Below, in pieces: positions 38,618 through 48,280 of a stretch of 64,000 nt of DNA (its first letter is position 1; every line of letters begins with the position of its first letter). Below the pieces are notes generated by a model, which saw only the letters and a list, made by a program, of their open reading frames with translations, was not told the DNA's origin and searched no databases. Both the position numbers and the translations under genes were made by a program. Where the stretch lies: positions 62,001 through 126,000 of the forward strand of contig JAAYJV010000151.1 of assembly GCA_012522755.1 (NCBI GenBank). The letters run 5' to 3'. The stretch is from Candidatus Hydrogenedens sp. GTDB taxonomy: Bacteria > Hydrogenedentota > Hydrogenedentia > Hydrogenedentales > CAITNO01.

Positions 38618-40351
38618 ATGCGAAAGACATATTTCAGGCGTCATCATCCTATTTCTCTGATCCGGCTTTTACCTCTGCTCTTTCTCTTCTTTCCCCTCTT
38701 GCTGATTTCTTCTTCCTCTCAGGTGTCTGCCGAGGATAAGGCCGCAGAAAAGACGGTGCTCATCTGTCCTGTTTCCGGTGATATTTTTGATGGCGTGAGT
38801 GTTCTTGTTGATCGTGTAGTCAAAAAAGACAGTAAACAGGGCGATGTGCTTGTTTTTTCCATAGACACTTTCGGGGGTCGTGTCGATGCGGCCATCGACA
38901 TTGCCGCATCCATTCTTGAATCGCCCATACCCACCATCGCCTATATCCATGGGAAAGGCGCCATCTCGGCCGGAGCACTCATTGCTTACGCCTGTGACAC
39001 CATTGTCATGGCTCCCAGTGCAAACATCGGCGCCTCCACGCCCGTCATGCCCGGCGTGGAAATGGATGAAAGCATGAACGAAAAGTCCATGTCCTTTCTC
39101 CGGGCGAAATATCGGGCTCTGGGAGAAACCAATGGCCACAACCCGCTCATCGGTGAAGCCATGGTGGACCCCAAGATAGAATTATATGCCTCAGCGGAAG
39201 TGGACGGGAGCACGACCATTTACAAAATCGAAAATGGCCGTGTCATGGAAAAATATAATACGGTCCCGGCCGCTTCCAGAACAAGTGATGATCTGGATCT
39301 GGAATTGGCCAGACTCCAGGCTCAAATCATTCCCGAAAATGCTATGGAAGAAGTGGAAAGAGCTGTCAGAGATGCTCTTAATCTGCCGGAGACACGCAGG
39401 GAAACCAACGCTGATACAGATAAAGACCAGGCTTCTCAGGAACCGGCATCTGTAACAGCATCTTCAGACAGACTTCCCGAAGGACTTCCCCCCCACGCTT
39501 ATCTCTTCAGCCCTGCAAACAGTGTGCTGACCCTTACGGCCCGCGAGGCACTGGAGGTCGGGCTCATTGCTCATACTGCATCCAGTCAGGAAGAAGCCTT
39601 GCAGAATCTGGGTTACAGCGCCTTCACAATACATCATCTGTCCATGACATTTGCAGAAAGAGTTTACGCTTTTCTGACGAGCCCGCTCATCAGTGCTCTG
39701 CTGCTTCTGGGCGGTCTGGCCGGTATATACATAGAAATCAAGACACCCGGCTTTGGTCTTCCGGGGCTGCTGGGAATACTGTGCATTGCCTTGTATTTCG
39801 GCTCTCGAGTGGTTTTGGGCATTGTGGGCTGGCTCGATCTGCTGTTGGTCATAGCCGGTGTGATTCTGCTTATTTTGGAAATCTTTTTCATACCCGGATT
39901 CGGAATTACGGGCATCAGTGGCATCATCTGTCTTGTCCTGGGAATCTGGCTCTCTCTGACACGGGTCCCCATCCCGACTTATACCTGGGATTATGTACGT
40001 CTTCGTGACAGTGGCATGATTCTGATTTCCGTGGCATTTTTCTTCTTCCTTTTTGTCGCAATCACCTGGCGCTTTCTGCCTCGCTCATCCTTTGCCCGAA
40101 AACTGATTCTGACTGATGCACAAAACGCGTCTGAAGGCTTTGTTGTTCAGGATGCAAAAGAGAGCCGCATCGCTGTGGGGTTGCGTGGCCAAGCCCTGAC
40201 CATGCTCCGCCCGGCCGGCCGGGCACGCTTCGGCAACACCACCTATGATGTCATGACAGAAGGTGAATTCCTTGAAAAAGGAACAGCTGTGGAAATTATT
40301 CTCGTTGAAGGAAATCGCTATCTTGTTCAACAACAGGAAGAAGAGGATTAA
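38618..40351 (+). CDS. Long NfeD family protein (ClpP-type protease, membrane and OB domains)
   Basis: 577 residues. A signal peptide (about 1-38) leads into a ClpP/SppA-like periplasmic serine protease domain: FGGRVDAAIDIA near 88, and AISAGALIAYACD with the candidate nucleophile serine near 117. A variable linker follows, then four or five membrane helices (about 345-490) and a C-terminal OB-fold NfeD domain (RPAGRARFGNTTYDV). This is the long form of NfeD, typically encoded with a flotillin/stomatin-type protein, as here. It heads the operon. Confidence 0.9.
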   Translation: MRKTYFRRHHPISLIRLLPLLFLFFPLLLISSSSQVSAEDKAAEKTVLICPVSGDIFDGVSVLVDRVVKKDSKQGDVLVFSIDTFGGRVDAAIDIAASILESPIPTIAYIHGKGAISAGALIAYACDTIVMAPSANIGASTPVMPGVEMDESMNEKSMSFLRAKYRALGETNGHNPLIGEAMVDPKIELYASAEVDGSTTIYKIENGRVMEKYNTVPAASRTSDDLDLELARLQAQIIPENAMEEVERAVRDALNLPETRRETNADTDKDQASQEPASVTASSDRLPEGLPPHAYLFSPANSVLTLTAREALEVGLIAHTASSQEEALQNLGYSAFTIHHLSMTFAERVYAFLTSPLISALLLLGGLAGIYIEIKTPGFGLPGLLGILCIALYFGSRVVLGIVGWLDLLLVIAGVILLILEIFFIPGFGITGISGIICLVLGIWLSLTRVPIPTYTWDYVRLRDSGMILISVAFFFFLFVAITWRFLPRSSFARKLILTDAQNASEGFVVQDAKESRIAVGLRGQALTMLRPAGRARFGNTTYDVMTEGEFLEKGTAVEIILVEGNRYLVQQQEEED

Positions 40352-40356
40352 GGTCC

Positions 40357-40656
40357 ATGGATAACAACACTATTCTGGTTCAAATGCTTCGTCAGTTACT
40401 GAAAGAAATGGAGATCGTTTCTTCTCAAGGGGCCGGGTATTATACCTGCGTTCCTTTTGCGCGCCGCTTCAACAAACTGCTGGAACAGGCACGCAATCTG
40501 CACGGAGCTGAAAATGCCTTTCTCCATACCTTTGAAAGCCTGGAAGAACATGACCCTAAAGACCCCAGTGACAAGAGCAATGTGTTGCTGGGTATCCGCG
40601 TTGAAATTTCTCAGTTGATCACCTATCTTGAATGTTTGAATGAAGGTAAGGCCTGA
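40357..40656 (+). CDS. Small conserved-context protein, function unknown
   Basis: 99 residues, soluble, mostly helical by eye, no signal and no membrane segment. I do not recognise a family. It lies five bases after the long nfeD gene and two bases before the short one, so it is certainly translated with the operon. A mid-protein GYYTCVPFARRFNKLLEQA segment is its most distinctive part. A role with the NfeD-FloA membrane complex is a context-based guess. Confidence 0.75.
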   Translation: MDNNTILVQMLRQLLKEMEIVSSQGAGYYTCVPFARRFNKLLEQARNLHGAENAFLHTFESLEEHDPKDPSDKSNVLLGIRVEISQLITYLECLNEGKA

Positions 40657-40658
40657 TT

Positions 40659-41141
40659 ATGATATGGGTAATTTTATTTTTTATTGCCGGAATGGTGTTG
40701 ATTTTCAGTGAGTTTTTTCTGCCGGGTGGTGTTCTGGGCGCCATCGGCGGCCTATTGATACTGGTCAGTATCGCTTTGGGCTTTCAGACGGCCGGTGATT
40801 ATTTTCTTTTCATTATCATCGGTGAATTGCTCGGGGCCGCCATGTGCATTGTTCTGGGATTCTGGGTCCTTACCCGGACGAAGGCTTCCCGCCTTCTGAC
40901 TCAGGAACATGTGCAGACACAGGAGTCCGGTTATGTGAGTGCCGAGTCAGACTTGAGCCTGCTGGGACAGGAAGGTACAGCCCTGACCGCCTTACGTCCA
41001 TCAGGCACTGTGGTCATCGGAAAACAGCGTATAGATGTCGTCACTGACGGCACATTTTTGGAAGAAGGTACCCGCATCGTTGTCGTGCAGGTGCAGGGCT
41101 CTCGCGTGGTTGTGGAAGCGGTTTCATCCCCTTCACCGTAA
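40659..41141 (+). CDS. Short NfeD family protein
   Basis: 160 residues: two or three membrane helices (about 1-70) followed by a C-terminal OB-fold domain (GQEGTALTALRPSGTVVIG near 107 and a second strand set near 131). This is the truncated NfeD without protease domain, the usual partner of FloA. It duplicates the C-terminal half of the long NfeD two genes upstream. Confidence 0.88.
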   Translation: MIWVILFFIAGMVLIFSEFFLPGGVLGAIGGLLILVSIALGFQTAGDYFLFIIIGELLGAAMCIVLGFWVLTRTKASRLLTQEHVQTQESGYVSAESDLSLLGQEGTALTALRPSGTVVIGKQRIDVVTDGTFLEEGTRIVVVQVQGSRVVVEAVSSPSP

Positions 41142-41162
41142 CACTGGAAAAGGAAGATATTC

Positions 41163-42170
41163 ATGGATGCTCTCTTTGGGATTTTTGCTTTCGGTATTTT
41201 CATTGTCTTCATGATCATTTTGGTCGTGTTCATATCCTACATACGCTTGTGGTTACGGGCCTGGCTGTCGCAGGCCAGCGTGGGCTGGCTGCAACTGATC
41301 GGCATGAGCCTGCGTAAAGTCAGCGCAGCAACCATTGTGGACTCGCGGATCATGGCTGTAAAAGCCGGTTTGAATGTGAGTACCAATGAACTTGAAACCC
41401 ACTATCTTGCCGGCGGTAATGTGGTTCGCGTGGTACAGGCGCTCATTGCCGCAAACAAGGCGAATATTGATCTTTCCTTCCAGCAGGCCACAGCCATCGA
41501 TCTGGCGGGACGTGATGTCCTGGACGCTGTGCAGACATCGGTACGGCCCAAAGTGATTGACTGTCCTGATCCCACCAAAGGCGCACCTACTGTGGCCGCT
41601 GTAGCCATGGACGGTATCCAGCTGAAAGCGAAGGCCCGTGTGACAGTGCGTACCAATATCCGCCGGCTCGTGGGTGGTGCAACGGAAGAAACCATTGTGG
41701 CCCGTGTAGGCGAGGGTATTGTGACCACCATCGGCTCCTCCCAGTCCCACAAAAAAGTGTTGGAAAACCCCGACAGTATCTCCAAAACTGTTCTGGCCCG
41801 TGGACTTGATGCGGGCACGGCCTTTGAAATCCTTTCCATAGATATTGCCGATGTTGATGTGGGCGAAAATATCGGTGCCGAGCTGCAGATCAAACAGGCC
41901 GAAGCGGACAAACAAATTGCCCAGGCCAGAGCGGAAGAACGGCGGGCCATGGCCCGGGCTAGGGAAGCCGAAATGCTTGCCACTGTTCAGGAAATGCGCG
42001 CACAGGTGGTGAAAGCGGAAGCGGAAGTGCCTCTGGCTATTGCAGAAGCTTTCAAAAATGGCAATCTGGGAATCATGGATTATTATCGGATGAAAAATAT
42101 ATCCGCCGATACCTCCATGCGCGAATCCATCGCCAAACCCGGAGCAGAGCCCACCAATGAATTGAAATAA
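41163..42170 (+). CDS. floA: Flotillin-like protein FloA
   Basis: 335 residues. An N-terminal membrane hairpin (about 5-30) precedes the band-7/SPFH-like domain with the FloA-specific [20 protein letters not shown] stretch (positions about 118-137). A long Glu/Ala-rich helix ([20 protein letters not shown]) forms the oligomerisation tail. FloA scaffolds membrane microdomains. The tail ends with a short disordered segment. It follows the short nfeD by 21 bases, the classic pairing. Confidence 0.93.
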
Positions 42171-42914: not shown

Positions 42915-42973
42915 CCGATCAAACCACAACAGTGCCCATTGTTTTCCATGGCAACGGGCTTGGAGAGAACTTT

Positions 42974-44980
42974 ATGATCCTGAGAAAAGAGTTTACCCGG
43001 TCTTTTTCAGTCGCGGCATTCCTTTTCTTCCTGCTTCCGGTACTGACTGTCTCCGCTGCTTCCGTCAATTTCGGAACTATGCTTGAGGAAATGACGGATA
43101 TGGAGCGTTTGATAACACTGGATACCATTCCATATACGACCGGTCAGTTTTCCAGCTATGACAGGCTTTCCACAGATCCCACAGTGCTCACAGATCAAAA
43201 TTGGTTTGCCAACCTCGACCGTAACAACCACTTGCGCGTAGAAGAACGTGATGGCCGTCAGGAATGGGTGCTCATGGATGTGGCCGGTCCCGGTGCCGTG
43301 GTACGTTTCTGGTCAGCCAATCCTCTGGAAGGAGGCATTGTTCGCTTTTATCTGGATCACAGTGACGAGCCGGTCATTGAAATGCCGCTGGCTGCTTTTC
43401 TGGAAGGTCGAAGCAAGCCTTTCATAAGCCCTCTTTGCGGCAACCGCGGGCAGGGCTGGAACAGCTACGTGCCCATCCCTTATGCCGAACATTGCAAGAT
43501 CACCATCGACGAAGGCGATATTTACTACATCATCAATTACAGGACTTACACGACGGGCACAGAGGTGGACAGTTTCACTTTTGCCGATACGGAAACCCAC
43601 GTCAAAGCCTTGCGGGACACAGCCGCAACTCTGCTTCATCCTGATGCGATTGAAGATAAGCAGCCTGTGACAGCCCATAGTTTCGATGTGACCGTATCGG
43701 GTGCGGATTCGGAAGATTTTTCTTTCTCCGGACCGGCCGCCATTCGTGGAATCCGTTGCAGTGTGGAAGCGGATAATCTTGAAGAGGCCTTGCGCGGCTG
43801 CCTGTTGAAGATCAACTTTGACGAAAATGAAGCTTCTGTACTTGCGCCTCTGGGCGACTTTTTCGGCACGGCACCGGGTGTCAACGAGTATCAATCGCTG
43901 CCATCGGGAACGCTGGATGATGGCCGCCTCTACAGCCGTTGGGTCATGCCCTTTCAGAAATCTGCTGACATTGAGCTGATCAACTTCAACCGCTTTGCAG
44001 TCCGACTGAGCGGAGAGATCCTGGTCGCTGAACGTCCCTGGACAGAGGACAGCCTTTACTTTCACGCCAAGTGGAAGGGAGAATCTGATATTGCCACACG
44101 TCCCATGCAGGATTGGAATTATATGACAGCTCAAGGTCAGGGACGTTTTTGCGGAGTCATGCTCCATATCACCAATCCCGTGACCCACTGGTGGGGTGAA
44201 GGGGATGAAAAGATTTATGTGGATGGTGACACTTTCCCGACCTGGTTCGGCACAGGAACCGAAGATTATTACGGCTATGCCTGGTGCTCTCCCCTGCTCT
44301 TCACCCATGCCTATCACAACCAAAGCCGCTGCGACGGTCCGGGCAATCTTGGTCATACCTGCGTGAGCCGCTTCCATATCATGGACGATATTCCCTTTAC
44401 CCGTGATTTCCGCTTCGACATGGAAGTCTGGCATTGGGCGGACACTCATATAGCCCAGTCCATTACAGCCTTCTGGTACGCCACAGCTGAGAGCAAAGAT
44501 AATTTCTCAGAGCCTGGCGGCGAGTTGCTCCCTGTGCCCACCTATGAAGTACCCGAACCCGTTGAAGGTGCTTTGGAAGGGGAAAATATGCGCGTAATGG
44601 AAGTATCAGCCGGCACGGTGGACAAACAAAGCGGCAGCTGGCCCTGGAGTTCCTTTTTGCAGCTCTGGTGGCGTGGCGGTGCTCAGAAAGATCATCTGAA
44701 ACTGCGATTCCGTGTTGAAAAAGCCGGGAACTATGCTGTCTCCGCTGTATTCACCAAAGCCCCTGACTACGGTATTCATGAGATGGCCATCAATGGCACT
44801 GTCGTTGCCCCCGCTCTGGATCTCTATAATGCTGATGAAGTCATTGTCAGCGATCCTGTCTCTCTGGGCCGTGTTGATTTTGTCAAAGGCTTCAATTTTA
44901 TTGATGTGCGGATTGTGGACAAGCATCCCGATTCCAAAGACTATATGTTCGGGCTGGATTACATCCTGCTGGAACCCTGA
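42974..44980 (+). CDS. DUF2961 (GH172-type) glycoside hydrolase
   Basis: 668 residues from the ATG at 42974, which has GGAGAG upstream and starts a clean signal peptide (about 1-28). The DUF2961 domain fills about 50-450, with marks such as PGAVVRFWSANP and FPTWFGTGTEDYYGYAW. GH172 enzymes act on furanosides such as difructose anhydride or arabinofuranosyl links. A C-terminal beta-sandwich (about 560-668; GNYAVSAVFTKAPDYG) may bind carbohydrate. Exact substrate is unknown. It converges on a small-peptide operon and a GH38 enzyme. Confidence 0.87.
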   Translation: MILRKEFTRSFSVAAFLFFLLPVLTVSAASVNFGTMLEEMTDMERLITLDTIPYTTGQFSSYDRLSTDPTVLTDQNWFANLDRNNHLRVEERDGRQEWVLMDVAGPGAVVRFWSANPLEGGIVRFYLDHSDEPVIEMPLAAFLEGRSKPFISPLCGNRGQGWNSYVPIPYAEHCKITIDEGDIYYIINYRTYTTGTEVDSFTFADTETHVKALRDTAATLLHPDAIEDKQPVTAHSFDVTVSGADSEDFSFSGPAAIRGIRCSVEADNLEEALRGCLLKINFDENEASVLAPLGDFFGTAPGVNEYQSLPSGTLDDGRLYSRWVMPFQKSADIELINFNRFAVRLSGEILVAERPWTEDSLYFHAKWKGESDIATRPMQDWNYMTAQGQGRFCGVMLHITNPVTHWWGEGDEKIYVDGDTFPTWFGTGTEDYYGYAWCSPLLFTHAYHNQSRCDGPGNLGHTCVSRFHIMDDIPFTRDFRFDMEVWHWADTHIAQSITAFWYATAESKDNFSEPGGELLPVPTYEVPEPVEGALEGENMRVMEVSAGTVDKQSGSWPWSSFLQLWWRGGAQKDHLKLRFRVEKAGNYAVSAVFTKAPDYGIHEMAINGTVVAPALDLYNADEVIVSDPVSLGRVDFVKGFNFIDVRIVDKHPDSKDYMFGLDYILLEP

Positions 44981-45103: not shown

Positions 45104-45137
45104 AAAAAAAAGAAAGTGGACACCGAAGTGTCCACTT
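45104..45137 (-). terminator. Terminator of the micropeptide operon
   Basis: In the minus direction, a 10-bp perfect stem (45114-45123 with 45128-45137) closed by a UUCG tetraloop, then a T-rich run (45104-45113). Confidence 0.9.
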
Positions 45138-45163
45138 GATTGTTTACGGATGGTGAGGGGGAC

Positions 45164-45286
45164 TCAAACGACAGCGCCGCCGAATAAAATATCCGACAGA
45201 AAAGCGAAGAGTCCATTCAGAAAGCTGTCAAGCAAAAAAGTAACTGCTGTGTTGATCAGGCTGGCAATAAGAATACTGAAATCCAT
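45164..45286 (-). CDS. 40-residue hydrophobic peptide, second of pair
   Basis: The ATG at 45284-45286 has an AAGGAT ribosome site seven bases upstream and the stop is at 45164-45166. The peptide begins MDFSILIASLI and is hydrophobic almost throughout, with a central AVTFLLDSFLNGLF segment, so it should lie in or on the membrane. No family is recognised. It shares an AxxFxxDxF..GL pattern with the upstream peptide at 45341-45457 and is likely a paralogue. The intrinsic terminator follows after about 27 bases. Confidence 0.6.
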   Translation of the reverse strand: MDFSILIASLINTAVTFLLDSFLNGLFAFLSDILFGGAVV

Positions 45287-45340
45287 GGGAATATCCTTTT
45301 AGTTTTACTGGGTTGGAGTTGTACTGCTTCCGTTGAAAAT

Positions 45341-45457
45341 TCAAGATTCATCGCTGGATTCAGGGGTAATCCAACCCATGACCAGACCTGTGAACCAGTC
45401 GGCAAAAAAACTGAAAGCAACTGAAAAGAGTTTGTGGAACAGTTCAAGAAAGATCAT
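45341..45457 (-). CDS. 38-residue amphipathic/hydrophobic peptide, first of pair
   Basis: The ATG at 45455-45457 has a TAGGAGA ribosome site about seven bases upstream; stop at 45341-45343. The peptide starts MIFLELFHKLF, is very rich in Phe (eight), and ends in a polar TPESSDES tail. Central AFSFFADWFTGL parallels the second peptide. Candidates for its role are a small membrane-protein subunit, a holin-like or type I toxin peptide, or a secreted modulin-like peptide; nothing in the sequence decides this. Confidence 0.6.
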   Translation of the reverse strand: MIFLELFHKLFSVAFSFFADWFTGLVMGWITPESSDES

Positions 45458-45513
45458 CTGAGGTCTCCTAATGATTGTAACAATTGACGCGATGCTTCCA
45501 TGCATCTGGTTAA

Positions 45514-45542
45514 TTTACAATTCCTTCACAAGAATGTTACAA
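45514..45542 (-). promoter_or_regulatory. Candidate promoter of the micropeptide operon
   Basis: On the minus strand, TTGTAA (45537-45542), a 17-base spacer and TGTAAA (45514-45519), giving a leader of about 50 bases. It would make the pair independent of the upstream mannosidase gene, which ends at 45611. Confidence 0.35.
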
Positions 45543-45610
45543 CAATATTACTGACAAAATCTGCGCTCAAGAAAACGCCGTACCCATTCATAAAGTACTA
45601 TACTGTAGCA

Positions 45611-48280
45611 TTATCCTTCTTGCCATTCAAAATAGATGGTGCGCAAGGCATAAGGCGGAATTTCTATGGTCAGACTGTTCCCGGAAATATTCAGCGGCTG
45701 CTCCTTTTCTTCATTCAGATTACACGCCCAGGCGGCTGTGAGAGAATGACAGAGTTTGAAGCCATCAGATACTGCTTTGCTCGTGGGATTCCAGAATCGG
45801 ACAACCCCTCCCGGTCCTTCAGCAGCAAGTTTCAATGCGGTCATGACCGCTTCTCCGCTGAGCTGATTGAAAAGTGACCTGGCGGCGGAAGCTGTTGCTG
45901 ATTCATGATGCCTGGGTCTTGCCAGCATCTCTGAGACCAGACGGAGAATCTGTCGTGTATCCGCTTTCTCTCTGAGAGGCAACAGCCCATACTCCACTTC
46001 CAGACAGCCGCGGAGTTGGCCGTCTGTCTCTCCTTGCGTACCCACTGTTTTGGCGAAGCCTCTGAAGAGCGTCAAGGCCAGTTCACAACGGGGCGTGTCC
46101 AGAGCGGCATATTCATGCAATCCTGCAGGACAGAGTACAGCCAGGCCCCGGCGCTGATCCTGAACACCGAAAAAAGTGGTAAAAGCTTTTTCCTCGTTGA
46201 CCCTTTCCTGCCAGAGGGCTGTTTCAGGGGGAATTTCTATCTCTCTTTCCACTACTGCAAAAGGTGTCTCAGCAAAGGAGACGGCTGTCTCACAGTCCGT
46301 GGGGAAAAAGACACGGAGACGATGATCTTCGGCTGTATTGAGGATGGTGGTTTTGACCTTCACCAGAGGAGAATGTTTTTCGAGGGTAATACGATCTGTA
46401 ATGACCATCTCCACTTTATTTTCTGAGCGGTAGCCGTTGCCTTTTTCCAGATCTGCGGGTACGGCAAGTTTTCTTTCCACTCTGAAGGTGCAGCGCAAGG
46501 GTCCGTTCTCTTCTATGCTCGTCGTGACCTCTGTCCCGTAGGAACGCACAAGCAGATCATTTACAGGAATTCCCCGTGTCCATCCATCGCCGCAATCTCC
46601 CGCGTCTTCATAAAGGAGGAGGCCATCGTAACGCTGGCCATCAGCTGTTTCAATGGATAGAGCCCCATGATTATCAAGAGAAATCTCCACGTGCCCATTG
46701 GAAGCGGATAAGGGACCGGTCAGCAGGCTCCCGAAGTTACGTGTGGCATCGTTGGTTCCCTCAATGGAGAAGGAAGTGTATCCACAGGCGGGCAGCTCCA
46801 ATTCCACGGCGACATGATAGGCATCGCCCAAAGTGGACATTTCCCGGCCACGTTCATTGAGGCGGGGCCATTCCATATTCCGCTCAATCCTTTTGTGCTG
46901 ATAGCTCAGACGCCTGCCATCCGCATCAACGAGATGGAATTTGTTGTATCGCTCCCCCGTGGCCAGGCCGTCATGATAAATATACCCTGTCTTCTGTCCA
47001 TAGTCGGAGGGGAAATACAGTGCGAGATCATAGATTCCTTTCCGTGCATAGGGCAGCGGATTATGAACGGTGATATGCTGCCACTGATCCACTTCCGCCG
47101 TGGCATCACCCAGATCGGCCACAGCACGGCGGATGAGACCATCAGCAATGAGTTCAGACTGATCATAGCGATAATGCATATCCCGGTGCACCTGATCGAT
47201 ACTGCAACCGCAAATGGAATCGTGAGGATGGTTCTTCATCAGATATTCCCACGACTTTTCCACATAGCTTCGGGGGAACTGCGTACCCTTCAAAGCGGAG
47301 AGCAGCAGAACAGGCTCACACCACTTTTCCAGCAAAGCACTGCACTCATCATTTCGTTTTTTAAGATCCATGCGTGAAGAAAGCGTGTGGACAATCAGGT
47401 AATGACCATAACGCTCCGTATCACGGACAGGCTCTCTCAGCTCTCCTTTGCGCAGCGGATAAGTATCCTGATGACGAATGAGTTCCCGACCGAAGTCCTC
47501 CAGTCCCGTCCAGATAAATTCAATGTCCGGATAGCGCTTCTGCAACTCTTTGAATATCTGCACCATTTCAATATCAGGGTCCTGATGGTCAATGGCATCG
47601 AGCATGAGAACGATGGGTGCTGATCCACGCGCTTTTTCTGTTTCAAAATATTTTTCAAAGTGCTCTTTATAGCTTTCGTCGGTGAATCCGGCCTCCCGAA
47701 GAGGTCTGCGTACCTGAAAGTCATAGGGCCCATAGCTGCCCACATCGGATAGCTTGCAATAGGCGAGAGTAGTTCCATCGGGACCTTCCCAGTTAAATTG
47801 GGCCGGATAGTTTTCGTCCTGGCCCCCACGCCAGATGATGCCGGCTTTGAGACCGAAACCACCCATGAGCATGGGCAAAGCGGCAATGTGTCCGAACTGA
47901 TCCGGTGTATAGGCATAATCGAGGGGTTCAATGCCCAGCTTTCTGCAGTCGCTGTAACCTCGCATCAGGTTCCTGATGAGGCTTTCACCTGACAGAAGCC
48001 ATTCGTCGGGCAGGTTATACCAAGGCCCCACAAGTATCTTGCGTTCTTTCAGATGCTTGAGAAAGCGTTCTCTGGCCTCAGGACGTATCTGCAGATAATC
48101 ATCAATGACAATGGTCTGTCCGTCGAGATGAAAGGCTTTGAAAACCTCCTCTTCTTCCAGGAGATCCATGGCTTTGTCCACACATTCCACCAGCCACATC
48201 CTGAACTCCTGAAAAGTTTTATACCATTCACGATCCCAATGGGTTCCGACACAATAAAAAGCCTTCATTTTGTTCTCCAT
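45611..48280 (-). CDS. GH38 alpha-mannosidase-type glycosidase
   Basis: 889 residues without signal peptide, so cytoplasmic. The GH38 zinc and catalytic motifs are present: THWDREW (H14, D16), then YTPDQFGH with the likely nucleophile aspartate near 139, and HDSICGCS near 350. The beta-rich C-terminal half matches the family's central and C-terminal domains. Bacterial members cleave alpha-mannosides, including mannosylglycerate. The start is 48280 or, less likely, 48268. It is 5 bases after rsmA on the same strand. Confidence 0.9.
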   Translation of the reverse strand: MENKMKAFYCVGTHWDREWYKTFQEFRMWLVECVDKAMDLLEEEEVFKAFHLDGQTIVIDDYLQIRPEARERFLKHLKERKILVGPWYNLPDEWLLSGESLIRNLMRGYSDCRKLGIEPLDYAYTPDQFGHIAALPMLMGGFGLKAGIIWRGGQDENYPAQFNWEGPDGTTLAYCKLSDVGSYGPYDFQVRRPLREAGFTDESYKEHFEKYFETEKARGSAPIVLMLDAIDHQDPDIEMVQIFKELQKRYPDIEFIWTGLEDFGRELIRHQDTYPLRKGELREPVRDTERYGHYLIVHTLSSRMDLKKRNDECSALLEKWCEPVLLLSALKGTQFPRSYVEKSWEYLMKNHPHDSICGCSIDQVHRDMHYRYDQSELIADGLIRRAVADLGDATAEVDQWQHITVHNPLPYARKGIYDLALYFPSDYGQKTGYIYHDGLATGERYNKFHLVDADGRRLSYQHKRIERNMEWPRLNERGREMSTLGDAYHVAVELELPACGYTSFSIEGTNDATRNFGSLLTGPLSASNGHVEISLDNHGALSIETADGQRYDGLLLYEDAGDCGDGWTRGIPVNDLLVRSYGTEVTTSIEENGPLRCTFRVERKLAVPADLEKGNGYRSENKVEMVITDRITLEKHSPLVKVKTTILNTAEDHRLRVFFPTDCETAVSFAETPFAVVEREIEIPPETALWQERVNEEKAFTTFFGVQDQRRGLAVLCPAGLHEYAALDTPRCELALTLFRGFAKTVGTQGETDGQLRGCLEVEYGLLPLREKADTRQILRLVSEMLARPRHHESATASAARSLFNQLSGEAVMTALKLAAEGPGGVVRFWNPTSKAVSDGFKLCHSLTAAWACNLNEEKEQPLNISGNSLTIEIPPYALRTIYFEWQEG

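Follow-up and report, generated by a model that had tools for sequence, protein, structure and literature searches.

Two minus-strand frames of 38 and 40 codons lie in a gap between convergent genes of the window, that is, the whole 64,000-nucleotide stretch of Candidatus Hydrogenedens sp. DNA analyzed here, which belongs to a 4.0-Mb genome that is 95 per cent complete (G000:C123). Are frames this short genuine genes and, if so, are their products related to each other or to any known family, and what might they do in the cell?

Organization and conservation of the PepA-PepB unit

A preliminary description of the locus had proposed that two strongly hydrophobic micropeptides, with well-spaced ribosome-binding sites and with no described family to which they could be assigned, are encoded in one operon. 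This picture is supported by our analysis: both frames (here PepA and PepB) and their ribosome-binding sites are present as described. The unit consists of the following features:

45341-45457, minus strand: PepA gene, 38 amino acids, ATG start, MIFLELFHKLFSVAFSFFADWFTGLVMGWITPESSDES (evidence: conservation, dN/dS, AF2 helix)
45164-45286, minus strand: PepB gene, 40 amino acids, ATG start, MDFSILIASLINTAVTFLLDSFLNGLFAFLSDILFGGAVV (evidence: adjoins PepA in the same genomes; dN; AF2 helix)
45465-45469, minus strand: Shine-Dalgarno sequence AGGAG of PepA (sequence; equivalent site before PepA in 26 compiled pairs)
45294-45298, minus strand: Shine-Dalgarno sequence AAGGA of PepB (sequence; equivalent site before PepB in the compiled pairs)
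45114-45137, minus strand: intrinsic terminator with a perfect 10-bp stem, UUCG loop and T-tract (terminator scan)
45536-45541, minus strand: TGTAAC leader element, 84 nt 5' of the PepA start (recurrence of GTAAC in leaders)
45597-45626, minus strand: candidate sigma-70-like promoter (9/12 match, not above chance)

The UUCG-loop terminator was recovered as described, reading from 45137 to 45114, and the 800 bases scanned held four terminator-like sites, versus 0.7 expected. The upstream promoter that had been suggested did not hold up, since the sigma-70 scan at the locus returned two sites against 1.6 expected, which is no better than chance. Pfam assignments bear out the location in a convergent gap, with a DUF2961 gene at 42932-44980 (plus strand) and a GH38 alpha-mannosidase gene at 45611-48280 (minus strand); an rRNA dimethylase gene is also among the flanks. 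Near the pair, at positions 38618-42170, the window holds a membrane microdomain operon made up of two NfeD genes and, after them, a flotillin-like floA gene.

Hydrogenedentota are known mainly from metagenome-assembled genomes, and most of the genomes compared here are of this kind. Using tblastn and profile searches, we found an ordered PepA-PepB pair in 22 of 68 genomes of the phylum: in all 17 genomes of the window's GTDB family (f1), in all four of family f7 and in one genome (G017) of family f2. Most other families of the phylum yielded no close sequence relatives of the pair. In the 26 pairs that we compiled for comparisons of starts, Shine-Dalgarno sites, spacing and selection, the gene order is always A-B, the genes are 25-125 nt apart, and every pair has ATG starts after Shine-Dalgarno-like sites. 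A terminator-like hairpin follows PepB in nearly all relatives (its identification by eye is uncertain for G014-G016 and G022). In several genera and in family f7 (L060-L065, L067, L141-L143 and L145-L148), the PepB C-termini share the motif [G/K/E]-[D/E]-P-[L/V]-x, which is lost in the window's genus. In seven family genomes (L060-L063 and L065-L067), TGTGATAA, which resembles an extended -10 element, is found 102-216 nt 5' of PepA.

Where synonymous sites are unsaturated, dN/dS is 0.03-0.48, as expected under purifying selection on both frames; synonymous sites are often saturated, and dN is then 0.04-0.46. Between the window and the same-genus copy, dN/dS is 0.24 for PepA, and dN is 0.15 for PepB, whose synonymous sites are saturated. 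The tblastn comparison with relatives, named beforehand as the check on which the proposed operon depended, found the pair kept and under purifying selection. The objection that the frames lack conservation is therefore rejected, and conservation together with dN/dS rules out chance open reading frames. Both frames are real protein-coding genes under purifying selection, far beyond chance, and the pair seems to be a core trait in two or more Hydrogenedentota families.

The unit is also autonomous, as indicated by flanks that change between genera and by upstream genes that are often on the opposite strand in relatives. Specifically, the GH38/DUF2961 neighborhood is common only to the window's genome and the same-genus genome, and the other genera have different flanks. 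No consistent partner gene was found linked to the pair across genera. The window has no transporter or immunity gene next to the pair, and the relatives share none consistently. Most genomes carry one pair; G001 carries three and G002 two, with the extra pairs of this genus (L141, L142 and L143; genus g2) located on the same strand as amtB-type ammonium transporter genes, 90-160 nt 3' of them, and, at some of these loci, preceded by a GGCC-rich hairpin between the transporter gene and the pair. This linkage is compatible with a membrane-protein partner in these genomes. The two pairs of G007 may reflect mixed bins, because the proteins flanking one of them are 88-100 per cent identical to those of G006. 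G003 additionally carries, 3' of a guanylate cyclase gene, two tandem single micropeptides with a 4-residue period (L144:2246-2712); each has a leader and apparently a terminator of its own.

Neither peptide could be placed in a known family. No Pfam or NCBIfam model scored above the cut-off (the best, YobI, reached an E-value of 0.024 in two of 19 members), PHROGs gave no consistent family (best E-value 0.02), and neither PADLOC nor the PDB sequences yielded a match to either peptide. Phages and plasmids (tblastn) and IMG/VR also gave no match, and Rfam gave no element and no antitoxin, the hit to ES205 at an E-value of 0.65 being a chance one. With no match in any database searched, an origin from a known family, phage, plasmid or defence system was rejected. 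In a search of 386 genomes, 318 of them from other phyla, four weak partial matches were obtained outside Hydrogenedentota, and G165, which was inspected, lacks such a gene; a contig search with the closer sequence set matched Hydrogenedentota only. Nothing relevant on small proteins of Hydrogenedentota turned up in a search of the literature.

A four-residue register in both peptides

The two peptides had been described as paralogous on account of a shared AxxFxxDxF core. Paralogy is unsupported: a profile comparison with hhalign gave a probability of 26 per cent, and PepA-PepB similarity is no better than chance when columns are shuffled with their position modulo 4 preserved (P-value = 0.11). 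Alignments at offsets of 0, +/-4 and +/-8 residues score about equally. What stands of the core is a 4-residue pattern common to both peptides, and it is this common register that accounts for the resemblance.

At 100 degrees in family f1, PepA is moderately amphipathic and PepB is not amphipathic, a result that prompted an analysis of 4-residue periodicity. In all 21 PepB sequences of f1, positions 4, 8, 12, 16, 20, 24, 28, 32 and 36 are small or polar, and the residues two and three past each of these stripe positions are mostly hydrophobic; position 25 is G, P or A, and once S. PepA has its stripe at about positions 8, 12, 16, 20, 24 and 28, in the same register as PepB, with E or D mostly at position 5. 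The hydrophobic moment peaks not at 100 degrees but at 90-92 degrees for PepB and 93-96 degrees for PepA in f1, and at 91-94 degrees in f7. The median amplitude at 88-97 degrees exceeds that of every control among 1132 PepA-length and 734 PepB-length hydrophobic segments, which were taken from 225 larger open reading frames of the window and neighboring loci.

AF2, run with close sequences, predicts one helix for each peptide (residues 2-30 of PepA, pLDDT 80.9; residues 3-35 of PepB, pLDDT 88.7); these models are of monomers and have pTM values of 0.4-0.5. Kyte-Doolittle maxima over 19-residue windows are 1.2-2.3; these values are at the margin of what a membrane-spanning segment requires, and the helix may instead lie in the plane of the membrane. 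Across the 26 pairs, net charge is 0 to -5, with no cationic C-terminus. Both peptides have a small or polar residue at almost every fourth position of one helix, the arrangement expected for right-handed small-xxx-small packing, and the polar residues at these positions suggest that the helices pack together in the membrane.

Look-alike peptides and leaders elsewhere in the phylum

At least five further families have peptides of 35-50 amino acids, mostly single or in tandem, that follow a Shine-Dalgarno site and keep a register of 91-97 degrees: f3 (G018), f5 (G065, G067 and G057), f8 (G023), f10 (G036) and f11 (G043, G044, G030, G045 and G046); a homology-free scan added a candidate in a weaker context from G038 (f5). 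These look-alikes keep the physical pattern and little of the sequence, with weak homology to PepA/PepB in f11 only (E-value 0.002). In 763 kb of the window's own genome, the homology-free scan returned five matches, of which only PepA and PepB are convincing, and its reversed-sequence control returned one. Single peptides of other Hydrogenedentota families seem to belong to the class as well.

GTAAC occurs at -60 to -115 in nine of 20 representative leaders, from families f1, f5, f7, f8, f10 and f11, versus 0.96 expected and a maximum of four in 500 shuffles; because the motif was picked after inspection, this enrichment is only a lead. A conserved structured leader is not general (mean z of -0.5 over 32 leaders); local leader hairpins are found in genus g2 and family f11. 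Family f11 also has a separate micropeptide family (L165, L166, L179 and L180) with a conserved leader, TGTAACGTTT, followed by a hairpin, GCGCTCTGGAGGCGC, that has a GGAG sequence within its loop region.

Taken broadly, these observations could point to a phylum-wide and previously unrecognized micropeptide class whose members are defined physically and not by sequence, as helices of about 3.8-4.0 residues per turn in which every fourth residue is small or polar; they would share a GTAAC leader element, self-assemble into right-handed bundles in the membrane and serve a core membrane function that has no known bacterial counterpart. We regard this extended reading as tentative and, on balance, doubtful.

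Possible roles and comparison with known systems

For the pair itself, the chances seem to us about even that the autonomous two-gene operon encodes two single-helix membrane peptides that pair via a small/polar ladder and constitute a core trait of the family. With no signal peptide, PepA and PepB would insert into the membrane, and their helices would pack mutually along the ladder, as a hetero-oligomer or as homo-oligomers. The packing geometry would probably be right-handed and GxxxG-like, because the period of 3.8-4.0 residues exceeds that of an undistorted helix. A stripe with such a period drifts round a straight 3.6-residue helix and favors a right-handed crossing, as in GxxxG pairs. 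The assembly might finally act as a constitutive membrane component or as a regulator of larger membrane proteins, which is the weakest step of the proposal; we favor a core membrane role, given that no family genome lacks the pair. Among the options listed in the preliminary description, paired membrane peptides fit best, and toxins, holin-like and modulin-like peptides gained no positive evidence. The latter three are disfavored by the lack of PHROG or PADLOC matches, the family-wide conservation, the neutral-to-negative charge and the absence of a visible sigma-70-like antisense promoter.

Alternatively, the peptides may be small accessory subunits, similar to CydX or AcrZ, of a single larger membrane complex that is encoded at another locus. 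Like CydX, AcrZ and SpoVM (the last an amphipathic membrane-surface peptide), which are conserved membrane helices of 25-50 amino acids with core functions, they would form membrane helices, and they show core conservation and are encoded in a stand-alone location, and the extra pairs of genus g2 lie 3' of ammonium transporter genes. However, the transporter link is confined to this one genus, G001 has up to three pairs, and the pattern recurs in other families with little sequence similarity, which would be unusual for peptides fitted to one partner. The absence of a sequence match and of a fixed partner gene, the two-peptide operon and the strict 4-residue register also distinguish PepA/PepB from these proteins, and we consider this alternative unlikely.

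Quite unlikely, in our view, is a type I toxin-like or stress-induced depolarizing peptide pair. In such a pair, as described for TisB, helices would associate through a narrow polar stripe and leak protons, and expression would be restrained by an antisense RNA or a long leader. TisB is reported to form antiparallel dimers and to hold its charged residues along a narrow strip (PMC8309996), and PepA/PepB share with TisB, Ldr, Ibs, Fst and Hok a length below 60 amino acids, a hydrophobic helix, a polar stripe and, sometimes, several copies; the leader is also long. Yet type I toxins are single-toxin genes, and those reviewed have antisense RNAs and generally a cationic C-terminus (PMC8309996), whereas PepA/PepB are an ordered pair present in every genome of the family, usually in single copy, and are neutral to acidic with no cationic C-terminus. 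Further against a toxin, a sigma-70-like scan of 45104-45542 detected no promoter-like site on the plus strand, the leaders are not unusually structured (by the same mean z), and no defence or consistent phage family was matched.

It is very unlikely that the peptides are secreted as a surfactant pair or as a two-peptide leaderless bacteriocin: such bacteriocins, among them enterocin L50 and DD14, do consist of two leader-free peptides of similar size, about 40 residues (PMC6131525), but they are net cationic (PMC6131525), are accompanied by secretion or immunity genes and are patchily distributed, whereas PepA/PepB are neutral to acidic, universal in the family and have no such genes consistently beside them.

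Conserved genes of 30-45 codons are below the reach of many annotation pipelines, and the 4-residue register provides both a directly testable structural prediction and a homology-free route to more such peptides. With the right-handed GxxxG motif, PepA/PepB share small residues at each fourth position; GxxxG usually comprises one or two repeats, whereas PepA/PepB have about six to nine, over their whole length and with many polar or charged stripe residues. A strict register over up to nine repeats would make them a rare natural case of extended small-xxx-small membrane packing.
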